From Bulleidia sp. zg-1006 (GTDB taxonomy: Bacteria > Bacillota_I > Bacilli_A > Erysipelotrichales > Erysipelotrichaceae): DNA of 64,000 nt. This document shows, piece by piece, positions 15,098 through 46,552 of the stretch. The first letter of the stretch is position 1. Each line of letters opens with the position of its first letter. A model generated the notes under the pieces. That model was not told where the DNA came from and ran no database searches. It worked only from the letters and a program-made list of their open reading frames with translations. The DNA lies in NCBI RefSeq assembly GCF_016812035.1, contig NZ_CP069178.1, positions 186,001-250,000 on the forward strand, read 5' to 3'. The translations under genes were made by a program, and so were the position numbers.

Positions 15098-17893
15098 ATG
15101 AAAAATAAATTTAAAAAACTATTCAGTTTAATTTTTGCGACCATGATGATGATTACAACCATGTGGACAGTCAAGACCACCGTACAAGCTGCTACGGTAT
15201 CAGATGGCGGCTATTCAGGTTATTGGGTTCGTGTTAAAAACACGACATTAACGAATGGGAATAAGATTCTTCCACAAAGACTGCATTTCCATAATGGAAC
15301 ACCAGCTTACTGTATTGAGCCAAAGAAAGCGATGAAAATAGGACAAGATGTATATGCGACATCTTCTTTAGAAGACTATAAATCCTTATCAGCTTCTACT
15401 AAACAAAAGATTTCGGCAATTTCTTATTTTGGATATGGTCATAACGGAAGGAAAGAGCCAATTCACTACATTGCAACACAGATATTAATTTGGCAAACCC
15501 TAGATTCCAAGTATAAAGATTCGGAGGTTCATTATTTACCAAATAATCCGCAATATGGTCATTTATCGAACGCTAATAAAGTAACGGATAAAGTTAAAAC
15601 AATCAAAGCAGCCATTTTAAAGGATGTGAATCGTTATGAAGCTAGTCTAGGTGAACCTAATTTTCAGATTTATGGTGAGAATGGAAAAAAAGTAGGGAAG
15701 ACAGGACAGCACGCTAAATATGAAAATGGTATTGTTGGTAAGACTTATACCGTTGTGGATCAAAAAAATGTTTTGAAATATAAGAACTTGACGAAAAACA
15801 CATTTTCTAATGCCAAAGTATCTGGAAACAAAGTAACGATTACTTTAACAGAAAAAGATTTAAATACTAATCATACAATGAGTTTTAGAGGTAAAGAACA
15901 TAAAATTGGGGTTCGACCAATTATCCTATATGGGTCTGCTCAAAACGTGATTGTTCGAGGTGATTTAAATGATCCAGGTAATGGTTCTATTACCATTCGT
16001 GCCATTGGACGTACAGCTAAAATCCAAAAACTCACAGAAGGACAACTTGCTTTAGCTGGAGCTAAATTAGGTTTGTATGAAGATGTAAACAAGAATGGAA
16101 AGTATGATGTCGGAGAACCAAAGGTCAAAGAGTTTACGACCACAGAAAAAGCCACTGCAATTGAAGGCTTAGTACCGGGTAAAAAGTATGTCTTACATGA
16201 ATTAAAAGCGCCTAAGGGTTATGTTAGAGCTGAAGATGTTGCTGTAGCCATCAAAGATAAAGATGTAACCATCAAGATGATGGATAAAGCCATGGATGTC
16301 GTCGTTAAAAAGGTGACGGATAAGGGCGATAAAGTCGCTGATGTAACCTTAACTATCTTAAATGAAGATGGCTCTGTCGCAACGGATAAAGATGGAAATA
16401 AAGCTGTCTATAAGACCAAAGCTGATACAGATTGGAATGTTTCTAAATACCTGCAAGAAGGAAAGAAATATATTCTAAGAGAAACAGAAGTGGTTGCCGG
16501 TGTGCATATTGCAAAAGATGTGATGTTTACAGCTCCTAAAAAGGGAGATAAGACTTTGAGTGTTACGGTAACTATGGTCGATAAAGAAATAGATGTCATC
16601 GTTAAAAAGGTAACAGAAAAGGGAGATCGTGTCGCTGATGTAACCTTAACTATCTTGAATGAAGATGGTTCAGTCGCAATGGATAAAGATGGAAATAAAG
16701 CTATCTATAAGACCAAAGCTGATACAGATTGGCAAGCCGGTAAGTATCTACAAGAAGGTAAAAAGTACATCCTAAGAGAAACAGAAGTGGTAGCCGGTGT
16801 TCATAAGGCTAAAGATGTGATGTTTACAGCTCCTAAAAAGGGAGATAAGACTTTGAGTGTTACGGTAACTATGGTCGATAAAGAAATAGATGTCATCGTT
16901 AAAAAGGTAACAGAAAAGGGAGATCGTGTCGCTGATGTAACCTTAACTATCTTGAATGAAGATGGTTCAGTCGCAATGGATAAAGATGGAAATAAAGCTA
17001 TCTATAAGACCAAAGCTGATACAGATTGGCAAGCCGGTAAGTATCTACAAGAAGGTAAAAAGTACATCCTAAGAGAAACAGAAGTGGTAGCCGGTGTTCA
17101 TAAGGCTAAAGATGTGATGTTTACAGCTCCTAAAGCCGGTGATAAGACGATGAATGTTACAGTCACCATGGTGGATAAAACAATGAAGGTCTTAGTAGAT
17201 AAGATAGACAACCATGGAAAGCCAGTACCTGGAGCTGTTCTTCAAGTTTTAGATGAGCACAAAAAAGTCGTGGCTGAATTTAAAACAGAAGGAAAGGCAA
17301 TGGATATTTCTAAATACTTACAAGAAGGAAAGAAATATAGCCTTCATGAAAAGGAAGCTCCTTTCGGATATGAAATCATGAAAGATATTGAGTTCGAAGC
17401 AAAAGGAACACAAGAACAGCCACAAGTGATTAAGGCTGTTGATGGGCGAAAGAAGTATTATGTGGCGGTGGAGAAAGTAGATGCTCAAAATCCAAACAAA
17501 AAGCTAAAAGGAGCTGAAATCACTTTATTTACGAAAGACGGCAAGATTGCTAAAGACGTGAATGGTAAAGATTGTGTAGCCTTAACAGATGAAAAAGGAA
17601 TGGTTGTTTTTGAGGTTGAGTATAACGAAGATATGGGTGGCTATTATGCCAAAGAAACCAAAGCACCTCTAGGCTACCGTATCAATTCTCAGCAACATAA
17701 AGTTGTCTTATCCGAAGATTACAATTTTGCAAAAGAAAATCCAGTCAAGATTGTAGTGAATGATGAAGCCTTGCCTATCATTAAAAAGACAGTACATACT
17801 GGGGATTCAACCAGTTTAACAGTATGGTTAGTTGGCTTATTGATTGGCTTAGCAGGTATTTCTATCGTTATTTATAAGAAAAAAAGCCAATAA
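15098..17893 (+). CDS. Cell-wall adhesin with thioester domain and Cna-B (SpaA-like) repeats
   Basis: 931 residues. Signal peptide (1-32, cut near VQAA), then a thioester domain: Cys72 in AYCIEPK and Gln128 in IATQILIW would form the internal thioester used for covalent host attachment. From about 310 it is a chain of prealbumin-like Cna-B domains. Three 99-residue repeats begin at about 400, 499 and 598, with diverged units near 697 and 788. The C-terminus has VHTGD (899-903), one membrane helix and KKKSQ: a sortase-type anchor with V-x-T-G-D rather than LPxTG. It probably mediates contact with recipient or host cells. Confidence 0.88.
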   Translation: MKNKFKKLFSLIFATMMMITTMWTVKTTVQAATVSDGGYSGYWVRVKNTTLTNGNKILPQRLHFHNGTPAYCIEPKKAMKIGQDVYATSSLEDYKSLSASTKQKISAISYFGYGHNGRKEPIHYIATQILIWQTLDSKYKDSEVHYLPNNPQYGHLSNANKVTDKVKTIKAAILKDVNRYEASLGEPNFQIYGENGKKVGKTGQHAKYENGIVGKTYTVVDQKNVLKYKNLTKNTFSNAKVSGNKVTITLTEKDLNTNHTMSFRGKEHKIGVRPIILYGSAQNVIVRGDLNDPGNGSITIRAIGRTAKIQKLTEGQLALAGAKLGLYEDVNKNGKYDVGEPKVKEFTTTEKATAIEGLVPGKKYVLHELKAPKGYVRAEDVAVAIKDKDVTIKMMDKAMDVVVKKVTDKGDKVADVTLTILNEDGSVATDKDGNKAVYKTKADTDWNVSKYLQEGKKYILRETEVVAGVHIAKDVMFTAPKKGDKTLSVTVTMVDKEIDVIVKKVTEKGDRVADVTLTILNEDGSVAMDKDGNKAIYKTKADTDWQAGKYLQEGKKYILRETEVVAGVHKAKDVMFTAPKKGDKTLSVTVTMVDKEIDVIVKKVTEKGDRVADVTLTILNEDGSVAMDKDGNKAIYKTKADTDWQAGKYLQEGKKYILRETEVVAGVHKAKDVMFTAPKAGDKTMNVTVTMVDKTMKVLVDKIDNHGKPVPGAVLQVLDEHKKVVAEFKTEGKAMDISKYLQEGKKYSLHEKEAPFGYEIMKDIEFEAKGTQEQPQVIKAVDGRKKYYVAVEKVDAQNPNKKLKGAEITLFTKDGKIAKDVNGKDCVALTDEKGMVVFEVEYNEDMGGYYAKETKAPLGYRINSQQHKVVLSEDYNFAKENPVKIVVNDEALPIIKKTVHTGDSTSLTVWLVGLLIGLAGISIVIYKKKSQ
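16295..17185 (+). repeat. Three tandem 297-bp repeats in the adhesin gene
   Basis: Units start at 16295, 16592 and 16889. Units 2 and 3 are almost identical at the DNA level over most of their length, while unit 1 differs at many bases, so the last duplication is recent. Each unit encodes one 99-residue Cna-B domain. Confidence 0.9.
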
Positions 17894-18087: not shown

Positions 18088-18762
18088 ATGAAAAAGAAGA
18101 AATATGAATTAACATCCGAAACTAAGATGGTTGGGGGAAGGAAAGTATACAGAATCAAAGCTTTAATTGATTTTGGAAATGTAAAGGCTGGAGACTTAGG
18201 TGGTTTTGTAGAAAAGGAAGAAAATTTAAGCCAAAAAGATAATGCTTGGGTTAAAGATAACGCTGTGGTTACAGATAATGCGGTGGTTACAGGCAGTGCG
18301 TGGGTCGGTGGGAATGCTTTGGTCTATGGAAACACAAGGGTTACAGGTACTGCTTCGGTCAAAGATTGTGCGGTGGTCAGAGATAATGCTTTGATTGAAG
18401 GGAATGCCGTGGTTAAAGGAAACGCAAGGGTTACAGGTAAGGCTTGGGTCTTTGGTGAAGCGGTGGTCAAAGATAATGCCTTAGTTAAAGATAACGCTGT
18501 GGTTACAGGGAATGCTGTGGTTAAAGATTACGCAGTAGTAAAAGATGACACCGTGGTTACAGATAATGCTGTGGTCAGCGATTATGCTTTGGTTGAAGGG
18601 GATGATGTGGTTGATGGAGATTTTGTGGTTGTCGGTCTGACTTGGAAAAATTCAAAAGATGAAAAATCATTAAATCTAAATTATTTAAAAGAAACGGCTA
18701 AAGAAGAATATAGCCAAAAGGAAAATTATATTCCTAAAAAAGAAAAACAAATAGAAAGATAG
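18088..18762 (+). CDS. Left-handed beta-helix (hexapeptide-repeat) protein
   Basis: 224 residues. After a 40-residue cap (KYELTSETKMVGGRKVYRI...GDLGGFV), about 25 hexad repeats of the pattern x-N-A-x-V-x (DNAVVT, GNAWVK, DNALVK) run to about 180. This predicts a left-handed parallel beta-helix like that of YdcK-type proteins. The tail is charged. No transferase active-site histidine was seen. The cap and helix closely resemble the N-terminus of the ArdC fusion at 18918, so the two are paralogues in one operon. Function unknown; a DNA-mimic or scaffold role is possible. Confidence 0.75.
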   Translation: MKKKKYELTSETKMVGGRKVYRIKALIDFGNVKAGDLGGFVEKEENLSQKDNAWVKDNAVVTDNAVVTGSAWVGGNALVYGNTRVTGTASVKDCAVVRDNALIEGNAVVKGNARVTGKAWVFGEAVVKDNALVKDNAVVTGNAVVKDYAVVKDDTVVTDNAVVSDYALVEGDDVVDGDFVVVGLTWKNSKDEKSLNLNYLKETAKEEYSQKENYIPKKEKQIER

Positions 18763-18763
18763 G

Positions 18764-18785
18764 GTGGTCAAATGACCACTTTTTT
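18764..18785 (+). terminator. Hairpin with T run between beta-helix gene and next small gene
   Basis: GTGGTCA-aa-TGACCAC, 7-bp perfect stem, then TTTTTT, ending 4 bases before the next AAAGGAG. Confidence 0.8.
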
Positions 18786-18802
18786 AGAAAGGAGAAACTC
18801 AA

Positions 18803-18913
18803 ATGAGAAAAGAAGTGATTTTTGATACAACAGACGAATTAACAGAAGATGATTTAAAAGCTTTATTTGAAGATAAAGAATTTGTAGAGATGGATGCGGA
18901 AAGAAAGGAATAA
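18803..18913 (+). CDS. Small acidic protein (36 residues)
   Basis: A short frame with AAAGGAG 9 bases before the ATG. It is Asp/Glu-rich and helical (TDELTEDDLKALFED). It ends 4 bases before the ArdC-fusion start and overlaps nothing real. No family recognised; small acidic proteins in conjugative operons are sometimes DNA mimics. Confidence 0.5.
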   Translation: MRKEVIFDTTDELTEDDLKALFEDKEFVEMDAERKE

Positions 18914-18917
18914 AACT

Positions 18918-20837
18918 ATGGAAAAGAAAAAATATGAATTAACATCAGACTACAAGATAGATTTTGAGACTAAAGTATACAGAATAAAAGCTTTGACTTC
19001 TTTTGGAGATGTAAAAGCTGGGGATTTAGGCGGCTATATTCAAAACGAAAGAAATTTAAGCCAAACAGGTAATGCATGGGTCAAAGATAATGCCGTGGTC
19101 AAAGGAAAAGCAAGGGTTACAGGTAATGCATGGGTCAAAGATAATGCTGTGGTCAAAGATAATGCGAAAGTCAGAGATAATGCTTTGGTTACAGATAATG
19201 CTGTGGTCAAAGATAATGCGAAAGTCAGAGATAATGCTTTGGTTACAGATAATGCTGTGGTCAGAGATAATGCGGTGGTCGAAGGCAACGCATGGGTCTA
19301 TGGAAACGCTGTGGTTAAAGATTACGCCGTGGTACAAGAGTTCGGTCGGGTTGAAGGGCATGATGTGGTTGATGGAGATTTTGTGGTTGCCGGTCTGACT
19401 TGGAAAAATTCAAAAGATGAAAAATCATTAAAGCTAAATGATTCCTTAGAAGCTCCTAAAGAAGAATATAGCCAAAAAGGAAGTCGTAAGGATGAATTCA
19501 GAAAAGGTCTTGCCAAGCAATTTTTGAAGTTGCTGGATTCAGAAAACGTAGAAAAAAGCTTCAGTTGGATTAAAGGTTGGCGAATGAACGGTGGGCAACA
19601 AAATCTAAATAGTGGGAAACATTATCGAGGCATTAATCGCCTTGTTCTGGCATTAAAGGCTTATGAAAAAGGGTATTCAGATCCAAGATGGATCACCTTC
19701 AATGGATTAAAAGATTATGAAGGAGCCTATATCAAAAAAGGAGAACATGGTACTAAAGTAGAATATTGGGCAGCCGTAAAAGATGAACCCATTTATGATC
19801 CGGTCACCAAAAAAGAGAAGAAATTTTTTACCATTTCAGAAATGAGCCAATATATAGTAACACTTCCTTTAGGAGGGGATGATTTTAAAATATTTCCTAA
19901 GTATGCCACAGTGTTCAATGCAGAGCAGTGTGTAGGACTGCCTGAATATGTCAAACAGGTAACGAATAGTGAAGTAACACAAAGTGAACTTGTTACAAAG
20001 ATTTCTGAAAGTATGGGGGTCAAGATTGTCCACCATAAGGGAAGTGATAAGTGTTATTATTCTCCCTTGGAAGATGTCATCCATTTGCCACAACAGACTG
20101 ATTTTAAGGATGACTATGCCTATAATGCAACAGCTTTACATGAGTTGGCACATTCCACAGGAGCAACAAACCGATTAGATCGCAATCTTCAGAACTATTT
20201 TGGAACGGTTGATTATGCCTTTGAGGAATTGGTGGCAGAAATGACCGGTGCCCTAGTATCTACTTCTTTACCCGGTACGGAAGAAGACTTAGATAGTTAT
20301 TTAAAGAAACATTCTGAAAACCACAAAGCATATATAGCAAGCTGGATAGATCATATTCAAAAAGATGTGGATGTATTACCGAGAGCTTTAAAGCTGGCAG
20401 AACTGTCAGCAGACTTTTTGGAGCTACATGGTGGCTTGATGAGTTTGGAAGAATATAATAAACGTCATCAATATGAAAAACCGGTGATTGCAGATGAAAC
20501 AACGGGTAAATTGTTTATAGCGAAAAAAGAATATGCTCATGATGAATTGATAGATGAATTCAATGAATGTTTAGAAGTGGCTGTTAGTCAACCTAAAGGG
20601 GACTGGGCAGAAACGGAAAATGCTTTAATTAAAGAAGGATATTCGCTTCTAAATCATAAAGATTCTAGGGGAGAATTAGAAACACACTATGGAGTTAAAA
20701 CACTAGAAAAAATGGAAAATCTCATTTATGAAGCCATGGAAAATCACGATATTCAATTAGGAACAGTGGATCGGGTTAATGAACAATTAACAAATAAAGT
20801 CATCCAAACAAAAGGGTTTCAAATAGAAACGGAATAG
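18918..20837 (+). CDS. Beta-helix / ArdC-type anti-restriction fusion protein
   Basis: From ATG 18918 the protein has 639 residues; the frame is open to 18894, but AAAGGAA lies before 18918. Residues about 40-165 are hexad repeats (DNAVVK, DNALVT) of a left-handed beta-helix. From about 205 it matches ArdC: an ssDNA-binding domain (KHYRGINRLVLAL...ITFNGLKDYEGAYIKKGEHG), then a zincin-like domain with HELAH (408-412) and a downstream FEELVAEMTGALV helix giving the third ligand. ArdC proteins protect incoming conjugative DNA from restriction. The beta-helix fusion is unusual. Confidence 0.85.
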   Translation: MEKKKYELTSDYKIDFETKVYRIKALTSFGDVKAGDLGGYIQNERNLSQTGNAWVKDNAVVKGKARVTGNAWVKDNAVVKDNAKVRDNALVTDNAVVKDNAKVRDNALVTDNAVVRDNAVVEGNAWVYGNAVVKDYAVVQEFGRVEGHDVVDGDFVVAGLTWKNSKDEKSLKLNDSLEAPKEEYSQKGSRKDEFRKGLAKQFLKLLDSENVEKSFSWIKGWRMNGGQQNLNSGKHYRGINRLVLALKAYEKGYSDPRWITFNGLKDYEGAYIKKGEHGTKVEYWAAVKDEPIYDPVTKKEKKFFTISEMSQYIVTLPLGGDDFKIFPKYATVFNAEQCVGLPEYVKQVTNSEVTQSELVTKISESMGVKIVHHKGSDKCYYSPLEDVIHLPQQTDFKDDYAYNATALHELAHSTGATNRLDRNLQNYFGTVDYAFEELVAEMTGALVSTSLPGTEEDLDSYLKKHSENHKAYIASWIDHIQKDVDVLPRALKLAELSADFLELHGGLMSLEEYNKRHQYEKPVIADETTGKLFIAKKEYAHDELIDEFNECLEVAVSQPKGDWAETENALIKEGYSLLNHKDSRGELETHYGVKTLEKMENLIYEAMENHDIQLGTVDRVNEQLTNKVIQTKGFQIETE

Positions 20838-21241: not shown

Positions 21242-22369
21242 ATGATTGAATTACCAAAAAAATACCTAGAACAGGGATTTTCTACTTTTCAAAAGAAAGA
21301 AATAGAACTTGGTTTTCAACATGGTTTAGATGAAGAGCAAGTAGATAGATACGCAAAAATAGAGTTTGATAATCTACAAATGAAGCAAATCCGATTAGCC
21401 ATTGAAGATGGTTTTAGTGATGTTCAGTTATCTACTTTTTCAAGATCTGAAATAGATTGGGAAATGATGGAACATGCCAGAGAAAATATCAAAAATGGCA
21501 ATGTGATAGATGAAACCAAAATAGCTGATTTAAGGAGAAAAAACTTAAAGATTGTTTTCATTATCACCGGCATTCTGATTGTCTTGCTACTGGGTGGTAT
21601 GGCTTTTTTCTTCTCCAAAGACTCCTTGCAACAATTATTTCAAAAATTGGAATTATCGTTTATAACAGAAAAACCCATCGAAATCGAGTATGGATCAGGA
21701 TTTAATCCTCAAGACTATATTAAAAGTTATACCAAAGATAAGAATGTTGAATTGGTATTACCTAATGCCTTAGATACTACGGCATTAGGAAAACATACAT
21801 TAACCTTCACTTTAAAAAATAAAAAGAAATCTATTAGTAAAGAATTAGAAGTTGATGTAGTAGATAAAGAATCTCCAGTATTGAAGTTAAAACAATATAG
21901 CTTAACTTTAGAAAGAGGAATAAATACTACTTTTTCTTGTAAGACCTATATTCAAAGTGCAAACGATAATGTAGATGGAGATTTAACAAAGAAAGTGGAA
22001 TGTTCTAAATTCGATTCCAATAAGAATCAGCAAGAAATTCAATATTCCGTTAAGGATTCTTCCGGAAATTCATCCAAAGAAATCTTAAAGTTAACTTTAA
22101 AAGAAAAAGAAGTGGTAAAACCTGAAGAGAAAATTGTCTACATTAAAACACCTACAAATGCAAAAGGGCATCCAATTTATCCTAAAAACGCAAAAGGAGT
22201 TGGGGGTACAGATATAACTTTAAATAAATATTTCATGTTTAAAGATGGTTACACACTGGATTCCGGATATAAAGCTTGCGTTTTAGAAGGAAGTAAGTAT
22301 GGAGCCTATACTTGTTCTCCATTAAAAGACAAGGATGGCATTTACACCGGCTATCACTTAACAAATTAG
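21242..22369 (+). CDS. Single-pass membrane protein with Ig-like domain
   Basis: 375 residues. About 95 cytoplasmic residues (two short helical repeats, FSTFQKKEIELGFQHGL and MKQIRLAIEDGFSD), one membrane helix at about 101-122, then an outside region. It includes an Ig-like DUF5011-type fold (IEYGSGFNPQDYI...DKESPVLKL...DNVDGDLTKKV...YSVKDSSGN) and a C-terminal segment with two Cys. The architecture suits a surface component of the conjugation machine. Shine-Dalgarno AAAGGAAA. Confidence 0.65.
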   Translation: MIELPKKYLEQGFSTFQKKEIELGFQHGLDEEQVDRYAKIEFDNLQMKQIRLAIEDGFSDVQLSTFSRSEIDWEMMEHARENIKNGNVIDETKIADLRRKNLKIVFIITGILIVLLLGGMAFFFSKDSLQQLFQKLELSFITEKPIEIEYGSGFNPQDYIKSYTKDKNVELVLPNALDTTALGKHTLTFTLKNKKKSISKELEVDVVDKESPVLKLKQYSLTLERGINTTFSCKTYIQSANDNVDGDLTKKVECSKFDSNKNQQEIQYSVKDSSGNSSKEILKLTLKEKEVVKPEEKIVYIKTPTNAKGHPIYPKNAKGVGGTDITLNKYFMFKDGYTLDSGYKACVLEGSKYGAYTCSPLKDKDGIYTGYHLTN

Positions 22370-23285: not shown

Positions 23286-24722
23286 ATGTTTGTATTAGAA
23301 GCCACCAATTTTTTTAGAGGAATTTTGTGGTCAATTACAAAAGCCTGCTTAGGAATTTGTGACTATTGTTATGGAATGTTAAAAACCATGATGGGTTTAA
23401 AAATGGAAAACCTAGAATGGTTTTGGAAAATGTATCAATTTCTAGTTCTTCTCGTTATTTTATTTGTCTTAGCTAGGCTCTTGTTTATGTATTTAAAAAG
23501 TACCTATGACGAAACGGTATTTCAAAGAATATCGGGATTAGGAATGAGTGCAAGAGTAGTGATGATTGCCTTTATTCTATCCGCTACACCAATTTTAATG
23601 CCCTTAGCGTTTAATTCCATGACCACACTAACCACTAAACTTCCTAGTTTAATCACTAATGGGAATGATGTAACCATATCGCAAGTAATCACTGATGCTT
23701 CTTTGAATGGATTTGCAAAAGAAGGAAGTGCAACGTCAATTACGAAACAAAAAGTAGATATCGTCAATAACATGAAGGAAAAGGGTGGTGAAGAAATTCC
23801 CACTGACCTACCTTCGGTAGATGATAGCAATAAAAAGTACTTAAATATCTACAAATTAGCCACGAATAATATCAATGCAAGACAAAAACACAACGCAGAA
23901 AGCTATTATTTCTTTAATGATATAGTAGGAATTATTTTAGCCTTAATCATGGGTGGTATTTGTGCCGTCCTTATTCTTTATATATCTTTTCAAGTTGCAC
24001 AAAGATATATTTCCCTTCTGTACAAGATTCTATTAACTCCTTATGCAGTCAGTGGATTGATTAATCCTACTGATAATGGAACTTCTACTTGGTTTAAATT
24101 ATGTATAGCAGATATTTTAGGCAACTTTTTTCAAATGCTGTTTGTTTGGCTATCTCTTGTAGCTACTGCAATGTTTGATCAATACGGTTTGGTAAAGGCA
24201 ATATTTTTTATTGCTAGTTTAATTGGAATCCTCAATGCACCGCAAGGGATAGCTCAAATACTTGGATCAGATATTGGAGCTACCAGTGGTATGCAAGGAA
24301 TTAGGCAGGCTATGCAATTTGGAACGGCTGCTTTGGCTGGCACAAAACTAGCTACTGCCGGGGTAAAATATGCTGGTGGAAAAGTCGGATCGGTTGCCGG
24401 AACTACCGTTGCTGTTGGATCCTATGCTGGGGCAAGGGCATTAGGCATGGATCTCCTTCAATCAGAACCATCAGAAATGGAATCTAGGATAGGAGCCACT
24501 CCATTAAGAAGTGATAGTTATTCTAATCCGGGTGGGCAATCTTCACCAAGAGCCTCTTCACAAACTTGGAAAGTTGGATCCAAAGGGCAATTCTTATCCA
24601 ATACTTATCGAACAAGTGGGTTTGGTCAATCCATGGTCGGTGGTATGGTTAGAAATTTTGTAAATAGTCAAATTTCAAAGGGAAATGCTATTTTGCATGG
24701 TTCAAGACCAAAAAAGAACTAA
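23286..24722 (+). CDS. VirB6/TrbL-like conjugation channel protein
   Basis: 478 residues with about six membrane helices (near 55-75, 95-115, 210-240, 275-300, 305-325), a loop outside, and a glycine/alanine-rich region (340-400) before a Ser/Gly-rich tail. This is the layout of TrbL/VirB6 inner-membrane channel proteins. It is placed, as usual, between the pilin-like gene and the VirB3-VirB4 pair. Shine-Dalgarno AAAGGAG. Confidence 0.75.
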   Translation: MFVLEATNFFRGILWSITKACLGICDYCYGMLKTMMGLKMENLEWFWKMYQFLVLLVILFVLARLLFMYLKSTYDETVFQRISGLGMSARVVMIAFILSATPILMPLAFNSMTTLTTKLPSLITNGNDVTISQVITDASLNGFAKEGSATSITKQKVDIVNNMKEKGGEEIPTDLPSVDDSNKKYLNIYKLATNNINARQKHNAESYYFFNDIVGIILALIMGGICAVLILYISFQVAQRYISLLYKILLTPYAVSGLINPTDNGTSTWFKLCIADILGNFFQMLFVWLSLVATAMFDQYGLVKAIFFIASLIGILNAPQGIAQILGSDIGATSGMQGIRQAMQFGTAALAGTKLATAGVKYAGGKVGSVAGTTVAVGSYAGARALGMDLLQSEPSEMESRIGATPLRSDSYSNPGGQSSPRASSQTWKVGSKGQFLSNTYRTSGFGQSMVGGMVRNFVNSQISKGNAILHGSRPKKN

Positions 24723-24983: not shown

Positions 24984-25322
24984 ATGGAATTTATTGTACC
25001 TAAAAACTTCAAGAGTGGGCGGTTGATTATGAATCGCTTTAAACCTATTGATTTAACACTATTAATATCAACTTTGATATTTAGTTTTTTAACATCTATA
25101 ACCTATGTTGCGATGGTCGGGAATCTTGTTCATGTAGAAGTAATTGTGTTTTTGATTCTTCCAAGTGCTATTGTTTTTTTTCTAACGATGCCTTTTGGAA
25201 TCAATCATAATTTATTCATTTTTTTAAGAATTGTAATTTTGTATATCAAGAAGAAAAAAGAATACTATTGGGAGGGAATAGCTCGTTATGAAGTTAGAGA
25301 AGATGAAAAGGAAACTGACTAG
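24984..25322 (+). CDS. VirB3/PrgI-like membrane protein
   Basis: 112 residues with two close membrane helices (about 23-45 and 52-72) and a basic tail. The small size, PKNF/GR N-terminus and overlap of 35 bases with virB4 fit the PrgI (VirB3-like) family of Gram-positive type IV secretion. Confidence 0.75.
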   Translation: MEFIVPKNFKSGRLIMNRFKPIDLTLLISTLIFSFLTSITYVAMVGNLVHVEVIVFLILPSAIVFFLTMPFGINHNLFIFLRIVILYIKKKKEYYWEGIARYEVREDEKETD

Positions 25323-27891
25323 CTTTGAAAAAAAAGAAGTTGTTCGCTTTAAAAAACAACAAAAAGAAGTGCAGAAGATCAGAAAAAAAATGGCAAGCAC
25401 AGTATCTTGGATGGATATTGATGAAGTTCAGGATAATATGATTATTTTAAAAAGAGGGTCTAAAACAGAATATGTTATGGGGTATAAAATTCTTCCTCAT
25501 AACATTTTTATAGATGAAACAAATGCCTTTTTCAGAAGAATTCAAGCAGTAAGAAGTTGTTTTAATCAATCTCCAGGAAATTTATATTTTCAATTTGTGT
25601 ACAGCCCAGTCAATGCTGATCAATATATCAATAATGTGAATAATCTTTTGAATGAAGAAGATGATAAAGTTGTCAAAAAAATGTTAGAAGCTGATTTGGA
25701 TAAAATGGAATCCTTCCAACAATCTTTTAAAGAATTAGAATTTTTTGTCCTTATTAAGAGTTCTGAACCAAGAAAACTTGAGAAGGACATGGATGATTTA
25801 TACGGTGCTTTGCAAGCAGGATTATTTTATCCTGAAGAATTAAATAAGCGTGATTTTTTCAATTATATTTCCTATGCGTTTGAAAACAATTCAATTAATG
25901 ATTATATGTTTGGAAGAGGAATCCTTTCCTATTTAAATCAAAAAATTAAATACAATGAAGCAAAGGACAAGTTGGAAAAGACTGATTCAACAGAAGATTT
26001 TTCTAAGTACGGCACTCCAATTTATAATATTCGACCAGCCATCAAGAGAATTGAAAAGAGTAAGTTAGCTCCAACAGGCTTTGGAGTAAAAAATAATTAT
26101 CTAATCATAGGCAATAAATATGTTTCCAATTTGCTGGTTGAAAAGTTTACCACTCATTTTACGGAAGGCTTCTTGTGTGAATTTTTAAATGATCCAAGAA
26201 TAAAATTATTCATGTTGGATCGTCATTTAAAAGGCGTGAATATGGCACAAATGCTTAGAAGAGATTTAGCTGAAATGCAACAAAGATATAAAAAGAGTAC
26301 CGATCGAATGGTATTGGCTAGAATTCAAAAAAATTTAGAATCTCAAGAACAGTATATTGAACAGGTTATTAGAAATAACGATAGAACACATGATGTTGTT
26401 CTGGTTTTGCAAGTGTGGTCGGACGAATTGGAAGAATTAGAACAAGTAAGATTGGATTTAATGAGTAGAGTATCTACTTACGGCTTAACCTTATCAAAGG
26501 CTAATTTTATCCAAGAAGAATTGTTTAAATTGGTCAATCCATTATGGATTGATATTAATCTTCCAGGAGTTGTGCTAGAACAGTTTGGACAACCTATGCC
26601 TTCTACTACTGTGGCTGGTTTATATCCGTGGGTATTTGATACTTTAAAAGATGAAAAAGGATTCTTGTTTGGTCATGAAAAGCAAAACGGGGGGATAGTT
26701 TTGTTTGATCCGGCATACTATATGCACAATCCTAAAGAAGCTCCTAAAGACAATAGAGTGAATGGCAACATGGTTGTTTTAGGAAAAGCCGGATCGGGGA
26801 AGACAACTGCCGTAAATCTTAATATCAGAAACTTTATTAGAAATAAGTGGAAGATTATTTGGATTGATCCTGAAAACAAAAACAATCGTATTACCAAAAA
26901 GTATAGCGGTACTTTTGTGAACTGGGGGCAACGAGATAATATTATTAATATTTTTGATTTAAAACCTATTTCTACTGATGATGATGAAGATGATTTCAAG
27001 ATGTGGGATACTGAATTAGCTATTTTTAACGTTATTGAAGACTTGAATTTGCTGTTGCGGTATTTATTTCCAAGCATATCAGAAAATAGCCTGGCTCTTG
27101 TTGGGAATCTAGTTAAAAAGACTTATGAAGAGGTGGGTATTTCTAAAGATAAGGATGGCAAATATGAATCCTTCAAGGATAAGACTTATGAAGATATGCC
27201 TACTTTTTCAGATTTCAATAGAATCTTAGAAGCTAGAATGAGATTGCTAAACAGTTCCAATAAGGAACAGTATAAAAAGGAAAGTGAATATCTAAATGAT
27301 CTTCACATGAAGTTACAAAGACTTTTAAATGAATGGTCGATTTATTTTAACGGTCATACAACGGTTAAGCTACCTGATGAACAAGGCAGACAAATCATTT
27401 CTTTTGGAACAAAAAAATTATTCAATCTATCAGATAATCTTCAAACGGCTTTGTACTATGTCATGTTTACTTATGCCTGGTCATTGTGTTTGGATGAAAC
27501 GCAAGAATCGGCTTTTATTATAGATGAAGCTCATACGATGATTTTAAAAGGCAAGACAGCTGAATTAGTAGCGCAATTTTATCGTCGATCGAGAAAGTAC
27601 AAGAATATTATATGTACGATAACTCACTCTCCAAGAGATTTCGCTGATGATAAAGTCCTTACTCACGGGAAAGCAATATTTCAAAATGCGGTTTACAAGA
27701 TTATTATGAATTTGGATAAAGATGGTGTAACTGATGTTGCTAAACTTGACTCTTTAAATGATAATGAGCAGTTATTAATTCAAGATTTAATGCAAGGAGA
27801 TAGCTTGTTTATTTGTGGATCTAAGAGATTACCTATTCATATTTTAGCAACAGATAATGAATTAGTTGAAATGGGAGCTGGATATGATTAA
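25288..27891 (+). CDS. VirB4-like conjugation ATPase
   Basis: 867 residues. The N-terminal CagE/VirB4 domain is followed by a RecA-like ATPase with Walker A GKAGSGKT (499-506) and Walker B AFIIDEAH (about 742-749). Further motifs include the WIDPENK strand, RRSRKYKN and TITHSPRDF. VirB4 powers assembly of, and substrate passage through, the mating channel at the membrane. Shine-Dalgarno GGGAGGG. It overlaps the PrgI-like gene, as is common. Confidence 0.92.
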   Translation: MKLEKMKRKLTSFEKKEVVRFKKQQKEVQKIRKKMASTVSWMDIDEVQDNMIILKRGSKTEYVMGYKILPHNIFIDETNAFFRRIQAVRSCFNQSPGNLYFQFVYSPVNADQYINNVNNLLNEEDDKVVKKMLEADLDKMESFQQSFKELEFFVLIKSSEPRKLEKDMDDLYGALQAGLFYPEELNKRDFFNYISYAFENNSINDYMFGRGILSYLNQKIKYNEAKDKLEKTDSTEDFSKYGTPIYNIRPAIKRIEKSKLAPTGFGVKNNYLIIGNKYVSNLLVEKFTTHFTEGFLCEFLNDPRIKLFMLDRHLKGVNMAQMLRRDLAEMQQRYKKSTDRMVLARIQKNLESQEQYIEQVIRNNDRTHDVVLVLQVWSDELEELEQVRLDLMSRVSTYGLTLSKANFIQEELFKLVNPLWIDINLPGVVLEQFGQPMPSTTVAGLYPWVFDTLKDEKGFLFGHEKQNGGIVLFDPAYYMHNPKEAPKDNRVNGNMVVLGKAGSGKTTAVNLNIRNFIRNKWKIIWIDPENKNNRITKKYSGTFVNWGQRDNIINIFDLKPISTDDDEDDFKMWDTELAIFNVIEDLNLLLRYLFPSISENSLALVGNLVKKTYEEVGISKDKDGKYESFKDKTYEDMPTFSDFNRILEARMRLLNSSNKEQYKKESEYLNDLHMKLQRLLNEWSIYFNGHTTVKLPDEQGRQIISFGTKKLFNLSDNLQTALYYVMFTYAWSLCLDETQESAFIIDEAHTMILKGKTAELVAQFYRRSRKYKNIICTITHSPRDFADDKVLTHGKAIFQNAVYKIIMNLDKDGVTDVAKLDSLNDNEQLLIQDLMQGDSLFICGSKRLPIHILATDNELVEMGAGYD

Positions 27892-29965: not shown

Positions 29966-31312
29966 ATGGCTATTCTTAAAAGTACCTTTTTAAAATATGG
30001 AACTTTAGCTCCGCCTAATTCAAATTTCAAAGGAGTTATTGATACCAATTCCATCTTTGGAGAAAAGGGCTTATTCAAATATCACAAAAGAGAATCAGCA
30101 ATCAAAAAAAGTGGAGACTCAAAAAAAGATTATTCATTTTTTGATTATACACAAAGAGCCTATGCGGTTAATTCGTCTGAACGAAAAGAAATTTACTATA
30201 CTTATTCTGATAATGGCTTTTTAACGGATAAAAAAGAAAAAGAATGGCTTCGGGAAGCAAAAGAATCTTTTAGTAAAAAAGGCAATTTATTATTTCAAGA
30301 AATGTTATCTTTCGAAAATTATGAAGAAGCGAAATCTTACGGATTAAATAGCCAATCTGATTTTGCTACCTTAATGGACAAATGTATGCCAAAAATTGCT
30401 AAGGCAATTGGTATGAATTATACCAATTTAATGTGGTGGATGGATTACCACACAAACACAAAGCACCCTCATATCCATTTTAATTTTTTTGAAAAGGAAC
30501 AAACACTGACAAAAGGCAAGATTGATAAGAGAAAATTGGATCGGGTAAAAAGAATTATCTATACAGAGCTTTATGATCGAAAGCGAACTTTAGAACAAAG
30601 AAGCTCCTTGGAATTTAAACAAGAGATTGATTTAAGAAAAAAAGAAATTCTGGATTCTATTTCAATTAAGAACAAGCATTTAAATTACATGACAATCAAT
30701 AAGATCTTCAATTTATACATTCGCTTGGAAGATACAGGGAGATTGCAATTTCATTCAATTCATCAGAAATCCAAACGAAAAGAACTATTAGAAATATCTG
30801 AAATGATATTAAAAGATACAGTTGGGAAGGAAGATTATCAAAATTTTCTAAAACTGCTAAAAGACAATGATAAAGCTTTAAATTCAGTCGCAAAAGAAAA
30901 TGTATTCAATAATGCACTGACTAATCTTTATGATTTGAAAATCAAAATTGCAAATATGGTTTTGAAGGCTTATAAGGATGATGAAACAAAAGAAGCAATT
31001 GGTATGAATCATACCAATTCAAAAAAAGATGATCTGATGAATGATTATAATGTTCAAAAGATTAAAAAGAGAAGAGAAAAATATTTATCTGAAAACGGCT
31101 TCTCCAATAATGTAAAAGGGAAAAACTATGTTTTGAATAAGAGTGAAAAAAGTAGCTTTGCTTTTCGTTTAAATAGCCAATTTAGAAAGAATGTTGATCC
31201 TGAAATTAGGCAATACCTTTCTAATTCAAAATCAGAAATTAATGCCTATCTAAGAAATACGGATGAACTTGTTAATGTAGTGGATGATTTTGAAATTATC
31301 CAAAGTTTATAA
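29966..31312 (+). CDS. Conjugative relaxase (MobL/MobP-like)
   Basis: 448 residues. The relaxase core has an N-terminal region with possible catalytic Tyr (FDYTQRAY), then WWMDYHTNTKHPHIHFNFFE, where H167, H169 and H171 form the metal-binding motif. This resembles MobL/MobP enzymes, which nick oriT and pilot the strand. Two palindrome copies lie in frame: one encodes AIGMNYTNL just before the His motif (about 149-156), the other AIGMNHTNS near 345 in the C-terminal part. Shine-Dalgarno AAAGGAA. Confidence 0.82.
   Translation: MAILKSTFLKYGTLAPPNSNFKGVIDTNSIFGEKGLFKYHKRESAIKKSGDSKKDYSFFDYTQRAYAVNSSERKEIYYTYSDNGFLTDKKEKEWLREAKESFSKKGNLLFQEMLSFENYEEAKSYGLNSQSDFATLMDKCMPKIAKAIGMNYTNLMWWMDYHTNTKHPHIHFNFFEKEQTLTKGKIDKRKLDRVKRIIYTELYDRKRTLEQRSSLEFKQEIDLRKKEILDSISIKNKHLNYMTINKIFNLYIRLEDTGRLQFHSIHQKSKRKELLEISEMILKDTVGKEDYQNFLKLLKDNDKALNSVAKENVFNNALTNLYDLKIKIANMVLKAYKDDETKEAIGMNHTNSKKDDLMNDYNVQKIKKRREKYLSENGFSNNVKGKNYVLNKSEKSSFAFRLNSQFRKNVDPEIRQYLSNSKSEINAYLRNTDELVNVVDDFEIIQSL
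30406..30428. repeat. Element palindrome, in-frame copy in the relaxase core
   Basis: AATTGGTAT-GAATT-ATACCAATT, translated I-G-M-N-Y-T-N. Here the peptide sits where relaxases of this type usually have a conserved 'G-x-x-x-x-N-x-x-W' stretch, so it is part of the enzyme core. Confidence 0.9.
30997..31019. repeat. Element palindrome, in-frame copy in the relaxase C-terminal part
   Basis: AATTGGTATGA-A-TCATACCAATT, translated I-G-M-N-H-T-N, in a charged linker-like region. Confidence 0.92.
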
Positions 31313-31378: not shown

Positions 31379-31400
31379 AGATTATGAAATTAAGATATAA
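31362..31400 (+). CDS. Palindrome-encoded leader peptide (MNHTNSDYEIKI)
   Basis: The 12-codon frame starts at the ATG in the palindrome, about 9 bases from a good Shine-Dalgarno, and stops at 31400. It overlaps the virD4 start (31384) in another frame, so virD4 may be translated by coupling to it. Whether the peptide is made is untested. Confidence 0.4.
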   Translation: MNHTNSDYEIKI

Positions 31401-33942
31401 ATTTTTGTTAATTGTTACCTGGTTTCCCTTATTATATTTGTCGGTTACGCAGATTGCATACTTTTTAAGTTTTCATTATGATTTGCTTGCTTGGAGTAAG
31501 CAGCAAAAATTCTTACTTCCCTGGTCGGTGGTTTACTGGCAAGGAAACAGTGACTATTTTAGATTAAGCCTAATCTTTTCCGGTTTACTGACTTTCTTTT
31601 TCCTTTTAACTTTGTTTTCTCCAAACAAAAGCGAAAGAGAAAGAAGAAGAGCTGAAAGAAGATTGACGGCTGAAGAAAGACTAGAGTATAAGCACTTATC
31701 AACAAAGAAGGAAACAAGAGTAGGACTGCAAAGATTAAATTTCACCGATGAAGCTGTATTGAATCATTTGAAAGAAGATAAGCTACAAAGTGCTATTGGT
31801 TATTGGTCAATGTTGCTAACTTTAATAAGTGTTCTAGCAATAATGGTCGGAGCCACCATTGGGACAATTACATATGCGGTTAGTAAGTTAAAGAACATCA
31901 AGACAATGTATAACATATATTGTATACCATTTATAAAGATATGGATTGCTTTTCTTCTGATTGGAATATTTGTATTTGTGTGTTCCTTTATAGTCAATGT
32001 TCAAAAAAGTTTATCAAACCGGCAAGAAGGAGAAAGATTCACCTGGGATTATTTTAGAGATTATTGTAATTATTGTTTCAATGAATCTAAAAAGAGAGCA
32101 AACAAGCTAATGGACTTCCTAAAAATGAATAAAGACTTCCGCTTTACCACCTTGAAAAAATGGAATATTAACAGAGAGGAGACTTACTTTAGATCGGGTA
32201 TTCCGATAGAAACATTTAAAAATAAAATGTATGTAGATGCTTCCGATAGTCATAATATTGTAGTCGGAACTACCAATTCAGGTAAAACGCAATCACAAAT
32301 TAATCCTATGATTATGGGATCCATGATGGCTGGGGAAAGTATGATTATCAATGATATTAAAGGGGAATTAATGCCCACTTTTTACCATAAGTTAAAAGAA
32401 AAAGGCTACACTATCATTTCCGTTAATTTTATTGATCCTGAAACATCTTCATTATGGAATCCGTTAAGTATTGTCATTAAAAAATACAGATCGATTGAAA
32501 AAAATTATGAAGAGAAGATTTTAAGCACAGTAGGAACTGAAAAGGAAGCCTATTTAGCGTATAAAAAAGAATACTTAGGTTTGATTAAAGAATTTAATTC
32601 CCTGATTCACCTGCATAAATTATGCACTTCAACAACGGGAATAATTCACTTTGCAAAATTAGGATTCAAGAATGTCAAGCCTTTAGTGGAATCCGCAAAA
32701 GAAATTTTGATTAGGGGAAAGCCCTTAGATCAGCAGTTGCAAAACATGTATGTCTTCGAGAAATTGCTAGATAGATTTAAAGAAAAGAAAATCCAAGTGG
32801 AAATGAAGAAGAAAACATCACTTCCACCAATTGATTTTTCTGAAGCACTAGAATATCTAAGAGATATTTCTAATACCTTGTTTCTGGAAAAAGATTCGAA
32901 AAATTCTTTCTTTTGGCAACAAGCGCAATTCCTTTTTGAAGGAATTATTCTGTTCATGTTGGAATATGAATACCTAGATCAAGATGAACAAGGGGAATAT
33001 ATCCTCAAGAAACTAGATGATAATCAGATTAATTTCAGAACAATAAAACTTTTTCGAGATGAAATGGTTACTACAGAAGCGTTTTTTAGAAACGATGAAA
33101 TTATCAATCATTTCTTAATGTTAAAATCATCAGAAGATTTCTCCATGCAAAGAATGAAGGGCGTATTGGATCAACCGGAAAATACTAGATCCAATATTTT
33201 AGGAACATTCGACACAAAGATTAGTATTGGTACACTCAATGAATCCATAGCGAAAATGACAAGTCAATCTAATATTGATTTTCATGATTTAGGAACAAAG
33301 AAAACAGCGTTATTTATTGGTGTGCATGATGAAAAAGAAACCTACTATCCATTCGTGTCAATGTTAATTAAACAAGCGTATGAAGAGTTGGTTAAAACGG
33401 CTCGTGAAGATATTGATCAAAGGTTACCGATTCCATTAAATATTATCTGGGATGAGTTTGGGATTTCACCGGCATTAAAAAATATAGATAACATGTTATC
33501 GGCTATGCGATTTCGTGGAATTAGAATGACTATGGTTATTCAAGACTTTTCACAATTGGATGAAAAATATGGAAAAAATACAGCTTCATCCATTAAAAAT
33601 AATGTTATGAATACTATTTACTTATTAGCCGGGGAAAAATCAACTTTAGAAGACATATCGTATAAGGCAGGTCATCGATTAAGTTGGAATAAAGAACTAA
33701 ATAGATTTGATAAAGTACCAATCATGCCTGCGGAAAGACTTAGTCGCTTTCAATATGGAGAAGCATTGATTTTATCACAAAGGAAAAATCCTATTTATAC
33801 CCATCTTAGGGAGTTTAAAAAATATGGCTACTATAAAAAATTAGGGAAACCATCCGCCGATTTAATGGATCGAAAGCTTCCTGAATTGAATTGGTTTTTA
33901 CTAACGAAAGAATGGCAGAGAATACAAGATTTTAAATTTTAA
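31384..33942 (+). CDS. VirD4/TraG-like coupling protein
   Basis: 852 residues. Membrane helices at about 5-30, 55-78, 140-165 and 175-200, then the cytoplasmic ATPase with Walker A GTTNSGKT (295-302), IINDIKGEL, and Walker B IIWDEFG (D690). TraG-family coupling proteins bring the relaxase-DNA complex to the channel. Between Walker motifs there is an insert of over 150 residues, longer than in minimal VirD4. Its ATG lacks a close Shine-Dalgarno; see the leader peptide at 31362. Confidence 0.92.
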   Translation: MKLRYKFLLIVTWFPLLYLSVTQIAYFLSFHYDLLAWSKQQKFLLPWSVVYWQGNSDYFRLSLIFSGLLTFFFLLTLFSPNKSERERRRAERRLTAEERLEYKHLSTKKETRVGLQRLNFTDEAVLNHLKEDKLQSAIGYWSMLLTLISVLAIMVGATIGTITYAVSKLKNIKTMYNIYCIPFIKIWIAFLLIGIFVFVCSFIVNVQKSLSNRQEGERFTWDYFRDYCNYCFNESKKRANKLMDFLKMNKDFRFTTLKKWNINREETYFRSGIPIETFKNKMYVDASDSHNIVVGTTNSGKTQSQINPMIMGSMMAGESMIINDIKGELMPTFYHKLKEKGYTIISVNFIDPETSSLWNPLSIVIKKYRSIEKNYEEKILSTVGTEKEAYLAYKKEYLGLIKEFNSLIHLHKLCTSTTGIIHFAKLGFKNVKPLVESAKEILIRGKPLDQQLQNMYVFEKLLDRFKEKKIQVEMKKKTSLPPIDFSEALEYLRDISNTLFLEKDSKNSFFWQQAQFLFEGIILFMLEYEYLDQDEQGEYILKKLDDNQINFRTIKLFRDEMVTTEAFFRNDEIINHFLMLKSSEDFSMQRMKGVLDQPENTRSNILGTFDTKISIGTLNESIAKMTSQSNIDFHDLGTKKTALFIGVHDEKETYYPFVSMLIKQAYEELVKTAREDIDQRLPIPLNIIWDEFGISPALKNIDNMLSAMRFRGIRMTMVIQDFSQLDEKYGKNTASSIKNNVMNTIYLLAGEKSTLEDISYKAGHRLSWNKELNRFDKVPIMPAERLSRFQYGEALILSQRKNPIYTHLREFKKYGYYKKLGKPSADLMDRKLPELNWFLLTKEWQRIQDFKF

Positions 33943-36372: not shown

Positions 36373-36841
36373 ATAAACATCCCTAGTCGCTCTTTTTATT
36401 CTTTTGGTATTGCTCTTTAATCTTGTTGAAGGTTTGATTGCTTAAATCGTGCTCAATTTTATGTGCGTCGTGATAAGCAATATCCGGATCAACTCCTAAT
36501 TGTTTAAAATAACCGGTCAACACAGTATTTCGTTCATGAATTTTTTCAGCAATCGCAAGACCTGTTTCCAATAATTCTAAAGAACCATCTTGGTTCATTT
36601 GAATATATCCATTTTCTCTTAATTTTTTCATAGCGATAGAAACACTCGCCTTGGAATATCCGGTTTCTTCCGCCACATCAATAGAATGACAAATACCTTT
36701 TCTTTCTTTAATCACTAAAATAGCTAATAGATAATCCTCACCCGATTCGTAAATAGACATTTAAACTCCTTTTCAACCATTATACCTGATTTTTAATTTC
36801 GAGGAATAACAATACTTTTGTAAGCCCTCTTTTAGTATTAT
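36373..36841. repeat. 469-bp direct repeat, copy A (regulator gene and promoter)
   Basis: Nearly identical to 46084-46552 at a constant offset of 9711 bases. Contains the complete small regulator gene plus about 80 bases upstream. Differences are few, e.g. CTAGTCGC here against CTAGTCAC in copy C. Confidence 0.9.
36383..36760 (-). CDS. DtxR/MntR-family metal-dependent regulator, copy A
   Basis: 125 residues. The N-terminal winged HTH (GEDYLLAILVIKERKG, then HSIDVAEETGYSKASVSIAMKKLRENGYI) and a dimerisation helix pair with HERNTVLTGYFKQLGVD and HDAHKIEHDLS match MntR, where His77 and Glu-x-x-Glu-His bind manganese. AAAAGGAG precedes the ATG. An identical protein is encoded at 46094. TATAAT on the minus strand just upstream is its likely -10. 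Target genes are not evident nearby. Confidence 0.8.
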   Translation of the reverse strand: MSIYESGEDYLLAILVIKERKGICHSIDVAEETGYSKASVSIAMKKLRENGYIQMNQDGSLELLETGLAIAEKIHERNTVLTGYFKQLGVDPDIAYHDAHKIEHDLSNQTFNKIKEQYQKNKKSD

Positions 36842-38830: not shown

Positions 38831-38971
38831 AGGCACACCTCCACTAATATTATATCAGATATTACATATTATTACAAACGAAATCCCCTGAATTTGACAT
38901 GAAAACAGCAAAAAAGCTAGTATTTACTAGCTTTTTAAGAAAATATAAAATTCAAAACTGTCAAATTCCCG

Positions 38972-39109
38972 TTTTTTCATAGCGATAGAAACACTCGCCT
39001 TGGAATATCCGGTTTCTTCCGCCACATCAATAGAATGACAAATACCTTTTCTTTCTTTAATCACTAAAATAGCTAATAGATAATCCTCACCCGATTCGTA
39101 AATAGACAT
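38972..39109 (-). pseudogene. Truncated copy B of the DtxR/MntR-like regulator
   Basis: Only the first 46 codons remain, identical to copies A and C up to MKK; the frame then runs into the IS end and stops. It is a by-product of the IS1634 target duplication. Its promoter region is intact, so a short peptide might still be made. Confidence 0.88.
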
Positions 39110-46083: not shown

Positions 46084-46552
46084 ATAAACATCCCTAGTCA
46101 CTCTTTTTATTCTTTTGGTATTGCTCTTTAATCTTGTTGAAGGTTTGATTGCTTAAATCATGCTCAATTTTATGTGCGTCGTGATAAGCAATATCCGGAT
46201 CAACTCCTAATTGTTTAAAATAACCGGTCAACACAGTATTTCGTTCATGAATTTTTTCAGCAATCGCAAGACCTGTTTCCAATAATTCTAAAGAACCATC
46301 TTGGTTCATTTGAATATATCCATTTTCTCTTAATTTTTTCATAGCGATAGAAACACTCGCCTTGGAATATCCGGTTTCTTCCGCCACATCAATAGAATGA
46401 CAGATACCTTTTCTTTCTTTAATCACTAAAATAGCTAATAGATAATCCTCACCCGATTCGTAAATAGACATTTAAACTCCTTTTCAACCATTATACCCGA
46501 TTTTTAATTTCGAGGAATAACAATACTTTTGTAAGCCCTCTTTTAGTATTAT
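46084..46552. repeat. 469-bp direct repeat, copy C
   Basis: Matches 36373-36841. Recombination between the two copies would delete the 9.7 kb with the IS and PTS operon. Confidence 0.9.
46094..46471 (-). CDS. DtxR/MntR-family metal-dependent regulator, copy C
   Basis: 125 residues, identical in sequence to copy A (36383). See that entry for domains. It is divergent from the gene at 46563 and its promoter region ends within about 10 bases of that start, suggesting this is the ancestral location. Confidence 0.8.
   Translation of the reverse strand: MSIYESGEDYLLAILVIKERKGICHSIDVAEETGYSKASVSIAMKKLRENGYIQMNQDGSLELLETGLAIAEKIHERNTVLTGYFKQLGVDPDIAYHDAHKIEHDLSNQTFNKIKEQYQKNKKSD

Follow-up and report, generated by a model that had tools for sequence, protein, structure and literature searches.

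Probable replacement of RadC by a YdcK-type solenoid in a polyvalent ArdC protein of a Bulleidia conjugative element

The gene at positions 18918..20837 (+ strand) of the 64,000-nucleotide stretch of Bulleidia sp. zg-1006 DNA that we analysed (the window) encodes a 639-aa protein in which a YdcK-type solenoid, a linker, an ArdC-N domain, a zincin-like metallopeptidase and a C-terminal region follow one another, confirming that the fusion of solenoid and ArdC module in one chain is real. The fusion gene is part of a conjugative element that also carries genes for ParA, a surface protein, a TrbL-like protein, VirB4, a relaxase and VirD4. On balance we favour the reading that it encodes a polyvalent ArdC protein in which a YdcK-type cassette has replaced RadC, with the solenoid serving as a non-catalytic module tethered to ArdC. 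By sequence comparison the YdcK-ArdC combination appears to be new, within the known class of polyvalent ArdC proteins, and it ties ArdC to the YdcK solenoids, a family found in phages and plasmids as well as in conjugative elements.

The open reading frame is uninterrupted from an upstream ATG at 18894 to the stop at 20837 (18894-20837, +; 647 aa), and the start at 18918, which yields the 639-aa form, has a better Shine-Dalgarno sequence (AGAAAGGA) than that at 18894. On the + strand, the conserved YdcK N-terminal cap (KKYELTS..KVYRIKALTSFGDVKAGDLGGYIQNERNLSQ; 18918..19061), defined by alignment with six paralogues and viral relatives, is followed by a hexapeptide beta-solenoid of about 17 hexads (19062..19367), recognised by its hexad signature, predicted structure and a tandem repeat, and by a linker (19416..19481) that was identified by its match to a tail profile (E 2.6e-4) and by DNA alignment. 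Profile matching then places the ssDNA-binding ArdC-N domain (PF08401) at 19554..19790, ahead of the zincin-like metallopeptidase (PF18818; 19998..20387) with HELAH at 20139-20153 and EELVAE downstream. The C-terminal region (20508..20834), mostly helical in a low-confidence model, extends the protein by about 105 residues beyond the ArdC module and is not shared with the 69%-identical orthologue of a same-genus genome (locus L287, see below); its helices (aa 535-636) gave structural matches (Z 5-8) no better than generic helical bundles give, and these were set aside.

Residues 190-511 constitute the ArdC module, as this half matches ArdC-N (PF08401, E 3e-19), MPTase-PolyVal (PF18818, E 2e-30) and the ArdC structures PDB 6SNA/6I89 (E 1e-23), and its AlphaFold model superposes on 6SNA with a Z score of 24.5 (2.9 A over 259 residues). 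The HExxH motif is intact and the zincin residues H408, E409, H412, E436, E437 and E441 are invariant in a 25-row alignment. The ArdC protein of R388/pSa (PDB 6I89, 6SNA; PMC7213743) has the two-domain fold and HExxH zincin in common with the fusion protein (29% identity over 259 residues), whereas at about 300 aa it has neither the N-terminal solenoid nor the C-terminal extension. ArdC-N, zincin and T4SS neighbourhood are also common to the polyvalent ArdC-N/MPTase-PolyVal proteins described by Iyer et al. 2017 (PMC5512222), notably RadC-ArdC-MPTase, and the fusion differs from the RadC-ArdC-MPTase proteins of conjugative elements in carrying a YdcK-type solenoid where RadC stands. We assign it to the polyvalent ArdC proteins because it joins disparate domains in one frame beside VirB4, VirD4, TrbL and relaxase genes. 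Its ArdC-N domain, which in such proteins is usually but not necessarily N-terminal, is internal, with about 185 aa before it, as is also the case in the RadC-ArdC relatives.

Residues 1 to about 165 form a YdcK-family module consisting of a cap and 16-17 successive V-x-x-N-A-x hexads. This part matches the NCBIfam model YdcK_fam (NF040481; E 1e-22, 80.2 bits, below the equivalog cut-off of 350 bits), the YdcK structures PDB 2F9C/2PIG (E 2e-20) and phrog_5070/7964 (E about 1e-50), and Pfam PF18836 matches the fusion weakly. Family membership follows from the presence of both the conserved N-cap and the hexapeptide solenoid, on comparison with 2F9C, the phrogs and the paralogue alignment: YdcK (PDB 2F9C, 2PIG; NF040481; PF18836) and the phrog_5070/7964 proteins likewise combine the N-cap VKAGxxGGxhxxExNLSQ with a hexapeptide solenoid. 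These relatives are stand-alone proteins, whereas the solenoid of the fusion gene is joined to ArdC; moreover, the fusion protein lacks the C-terminal domain (CGCFxGT.EEF) with which viral members often terminate. At the DNA level the solenoid includes a tandem repeat of 54 bp (19065-19274; 3.9 copies, 90% matches), and 54 bp correspond to 18 aa, that is, to one three-hexad coil. The AlphaFold model shows strand pairs at each six residues from about 45 to 145 (block pLDDT 74-93 over 51-140), and the isolated YdcK module (model pLDDT 62) gave YdcK as its top, albeit weak, Foldseek match (E 0.037). Judging from YdcK homology and the hexad signature, the coil is presumably left-handed. Profiles, PDB matches and the predicted model thus bear out the initial annotation, which had proposed a hexapeptide solenoid ahead of ArdC-N and zincin; its regular N-terminal beta-helix can now be placed in a known YdcK-type family that is common in phages and has a solo paralogue just upstream (18088-18762).

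The origin of the fusion can be traced by comparison with related elements. In a genome of the same genus (G577) the orthologue at L287 is a RadC-ArdC-MPTase protein of 573 aa that shares 69% identity with the fusion protein over 350 aa. RadC also stands before ArdC in a second G577 element (L288), in G591 (L290) and, with a MuF-C domain following, in RUG054/G597 (L182/L289); RadC-ArdC occupies the orthologous locus in 4/4 related elements examined, all four of them collinear in the gene order ArdC - Ig-like - TrbL - VirB4. Blastn comparison with L287 revealed homologous, collinear flanks at 18781-18879 (79%) and 19474-20516 (71%), and between them a replaced segment of 594 bp (18880..19473, +) without homology to L287, which between the same flanks has 663 bp comprising the end of a 66-aa ORF and the RadC domain. 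The left breakpoint falls in a small upstream ORF: the 66-aa ORF directly precedes the L287 gene, and its first part matches a 36-aa ORF (18803..18913, +; 78% identity over 27 aa) that is its truncated relative. The right breakpoint separates the YdcK tail from SRKDxFRK, with which the ArdC module begins, and it coincides with the end of a partial YdcK tail, as the linker (19416-19481) corresponds to positions 1-22 of the 34-aa tail with which the solo YdcK copies in this genome terminate. The collinear flanks, the 594/663-bp replacement and the partial tail therefore identify the fusion as a RadC-to-YdcK domain swap, and this traceable exchange at a polyvalent-ArdC locus takes the place of the purpose-built two-way defence that had been suggested for the protein. 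RadC is taken as ancestral by majority, from four relatives rather than a rooted tree, and nearby solo YdcK genes are likely donors of the cassette. The ArdC half is more alike between the two elements (69%) than is VirB4 (47%), and the exchange of ArdC itself may therefore postdate that of the backbone. The swap shows that conjugative elements can exchange the part ahead of ArdC, and here both breakpoints are readable against a same-genus relative.

Around the fusion gene, all on the + strand, lie a stand-alone YdcK paralogue of 224 aa with the full C-terminal tail (18088..18762) and, downstream, a membrane/Ig-like protein (21242..22369) whose orthologue follows RadC-ArdC in 4/4 related elements (40-41% identity), a TrbL-like T4SS protein (23286..24722) syntenic with related elements, a VirB4-type conjugation ATPase (25288..27891; 47% identity to L287), a MobP/MobL-type relaxase (29966..31312) assigned by profile matches and a VirD4/TraG-type coupling protein (31384..33942). 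Upstream, the surface protein (15098-17893) combines a thioester domain with repeated SpaA-type domains and has a close version in the second element of the genome. The 1.545-Mb genome has seven YdcK places besides the fusion. Its more distant YdcK genes lie at about 813-831 kb in that second element, at 838 kb and, within a prophage region, at 1,168 kb, and several of them have extra domains at either end. One such gene (L034 13455-14438) has a different N-terminal partner domain of about 120 aa and represents another type of YdcK fusion in the same genome.

To our searches the fusion was unique. YdcK and ArdC shared one frame only once among the 198 ArdC and 88 YdcK distinct frames in the matches listed, which included five distinct RadC-ArdC frames. 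Among plasmid and phage records none matched over 80% of the fusion protein, and a scan of genome contigs with the fusion gave no match. Scanning contigs with an ArdC alignment uncovered at least 80 ArdC loci, none with YdcK among the matches listed, and no YdcK-ArdC fusion was seen, again among the matches listed, at 51 viral YdcK loci or in phylum and family genome samples. YdcK-ArdC was therefore not found to be a common annotated architecture in the matches listed. The combination was said at the outset not to have been described, and we likewise found no description: the survey of polyvalent proteins (PMC5512222) does not use the terms 'YdcK', 'solenoid' or 'hexapeptide' in its main text. 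Since the frame counts cover the matches listed, the rarity of YdcK-ArdC is supported by these comparisons, not proved.

What might the protein do? R388 ArdC binds ssDNA and is required in the recipient against HsdRMS, with its protease activity being dispensable (PMC7213743), and by analogy the ArdC half of the fusion would bind the entering single strand and lower restriction in the new host. The solenoid would then be an elongated, non-catalytic module that ArdC keeps on or near the entering DNA, as the tethered partner in RadC's stead. Catalysis is less likely than self-association or binding to a protein, because the hexads lack histidine and acyltransferase models match weakly; the most likely role of the solenoid is to bind a protein of the host or the element, or to multimerise. 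The solenoid probably acts early after entry, because solo YdcK genes of phages sit in early regions beside genes for Gam-like and annealing proteins, SSB and replication, and it would probably do in cis what solo YdcK does in trans at that stage; the linker and zincin may allow the halves to separate. Whether the protein is delivered with the DNA is uncertain, since R388 ArdC works when expressed in the recipient and export is not needed (PMC7213743). ArdC-N has been proposed as a 'header' joining cargo domains to transferred DNA (PMC5512222), a proposal that concerns N-terminal ArdC-N; the internal position of the domain in the fusion and its RadC relatives counts against such a role here. 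If the solenoid acts in cis like solo YdcK in trans, the function of YdcK could be read by mating, with RadC-ArdC, YdcK-ArdC and bare ArdC compared in the face of defined restriction systems.

The alternative that fares best, although we consider it distinctly less probable than a tethered module, is an accidental neutral fusion in which frequent copying of YdcK cassettes in this genome put one before ArdC; ArdC would then be the part that counts, with the solenoid as its passenger. A single instance could indeed be neutral or decaying, and the seven other YdcK places of the genome, the tandem YdcK arrays elsewhere, the uniqueness of the fusion among the frames listed and the whole-coil duplication in the repeat are all in keeping with such an accident. 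However, the frame is open across 17 hexads with a conserved cap, the cassette DNA is 20-25% different from the adjacent solo copy and the replaced domain is present in 4/4 related loci. The open frame together with the 20-25% divergence indicates that the reading frame of the cassette has been maintained over some time.

It is unlikely, though conceivable, that ArdC serves as a delivery tag, such that transferred ArdC carries a solenoid effector to the recipient while solo YdcK uses the same T4SS through the shared tail, of which the fusion would have lost half. This 34-aa tail (SLxLNxLKxxAKxEYxxKxxxIPxKEKEIER) is the C-terminal end of unrelated proteins from two conjugative elements of the genome, namely YdcK and proteins of 222, 267 and 52 aa (18661-18762 in the window; L034 13455-15116 and 18157-19023; L035 2754-2912, 9767-10435 and 13813-14616), and possibly constitutes a T4SS secretion signal or a cassette mark. 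The main reading stands without the idea of a T4SS signal. Synonymous change exceeds amino-acid change between tail families (pS 0.44-0.74, pN 0.22-0.36), a comparison of three families only; this speaks for the delivery reading, and on this small sample it disfavours a Shine-Dalgarno or coupling artefact. The ArdC-related TraC1 is moreover transferred along with DNA, according to PMC5512222 and PMC7213743. Yet the tail is absent from a known T4SS substrate, the relaxase of the second element, it was not found in 394 other sampled genomes of the class (395 with this one), and R388 ArdC, as noted, does without export. More doubtful again is the broader idea that YdcK solenoids form a general class of early-acting proteins of mobile elements, sent to the recipient in two ways, by the 34-aa T4SS tail and by ArdC fusion, with the gene described here switching from the first to the second.

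DNA mimicry, which the initial annotation had put forward for the helix, is very improbable. It would have the solenoid imitate B-DNA and titrate restriction enzymes, with ArdC coating the transferred strand, as might suit an ArdC half from an anti-restriction family. MfpA/Qnr proteins offer a precedent, being right-handed, acidic pentapeptide-repeat solenoids and known DNA mimics, and DNA-mimic proteins are strongly acidic. The solenoid of the fusion, also a repeat protein, is in contrast a hexapeptide one and neutral at the sequence level, with a net charge of +1 over the 98-aa helix core and 0 over the 177 aa of the whole YdcK part, and its charges are arranged as adjacent basic and acidic ladders (hexad position 2 sums to +7, position 3 to -11). 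Even among 40 viral YdcK helices the median charge is just -4.6 per 100 aa. We therefore rejected mimicry on charge, as the helix, at the sequence level, lacks the negative pattern on which the proposal had in part been made to depend. Least probable of all is a sugar- or acyl-transferase activity, as in the automatic label 'putative acyltransferase' of relatives, for although a Hexapep Pfam match lies slightly below threshold, the acyltransferase-model matches are far below their cut-offs, hexads 1-16 have no His for the usual catalytic role, and the best relatives, YdcK and phrog_5070/7964, are without known function, as is, to our knowledge, every member of the YdcK family.

Beyond the fusion, the prophage YdcK proteins (L045, L047, L051, L054, L059, L084 and L086) share the same cap and C-terminal end, with coil number varying and lengths from 159 to 420 aa, which suggests rapid gain and loss of whole coils. 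Clustered YdcK-like genes were also seen on plasmids of distant hosts, S. salivarius pIKMIN-B502 (L041 2326-7256; 13 matching places) and Bartonella pBT01 (L042; 5 matching places), where they are annotated as polymer-forming cytoskeletal or hypothetical. Elsewhere in the window, two copies of a 125-aa gene with matching ends and one fragment of it (36383-36760, 38927-39109, 46094-46471) lie around a DDE transposase gene. Finally, many stop codons in both elements have short hairpins (ggtggtcaaatgaccacc, aaggacagatgtcctt) and then T runs directly 3' of them (18762-18785; L034/L035).
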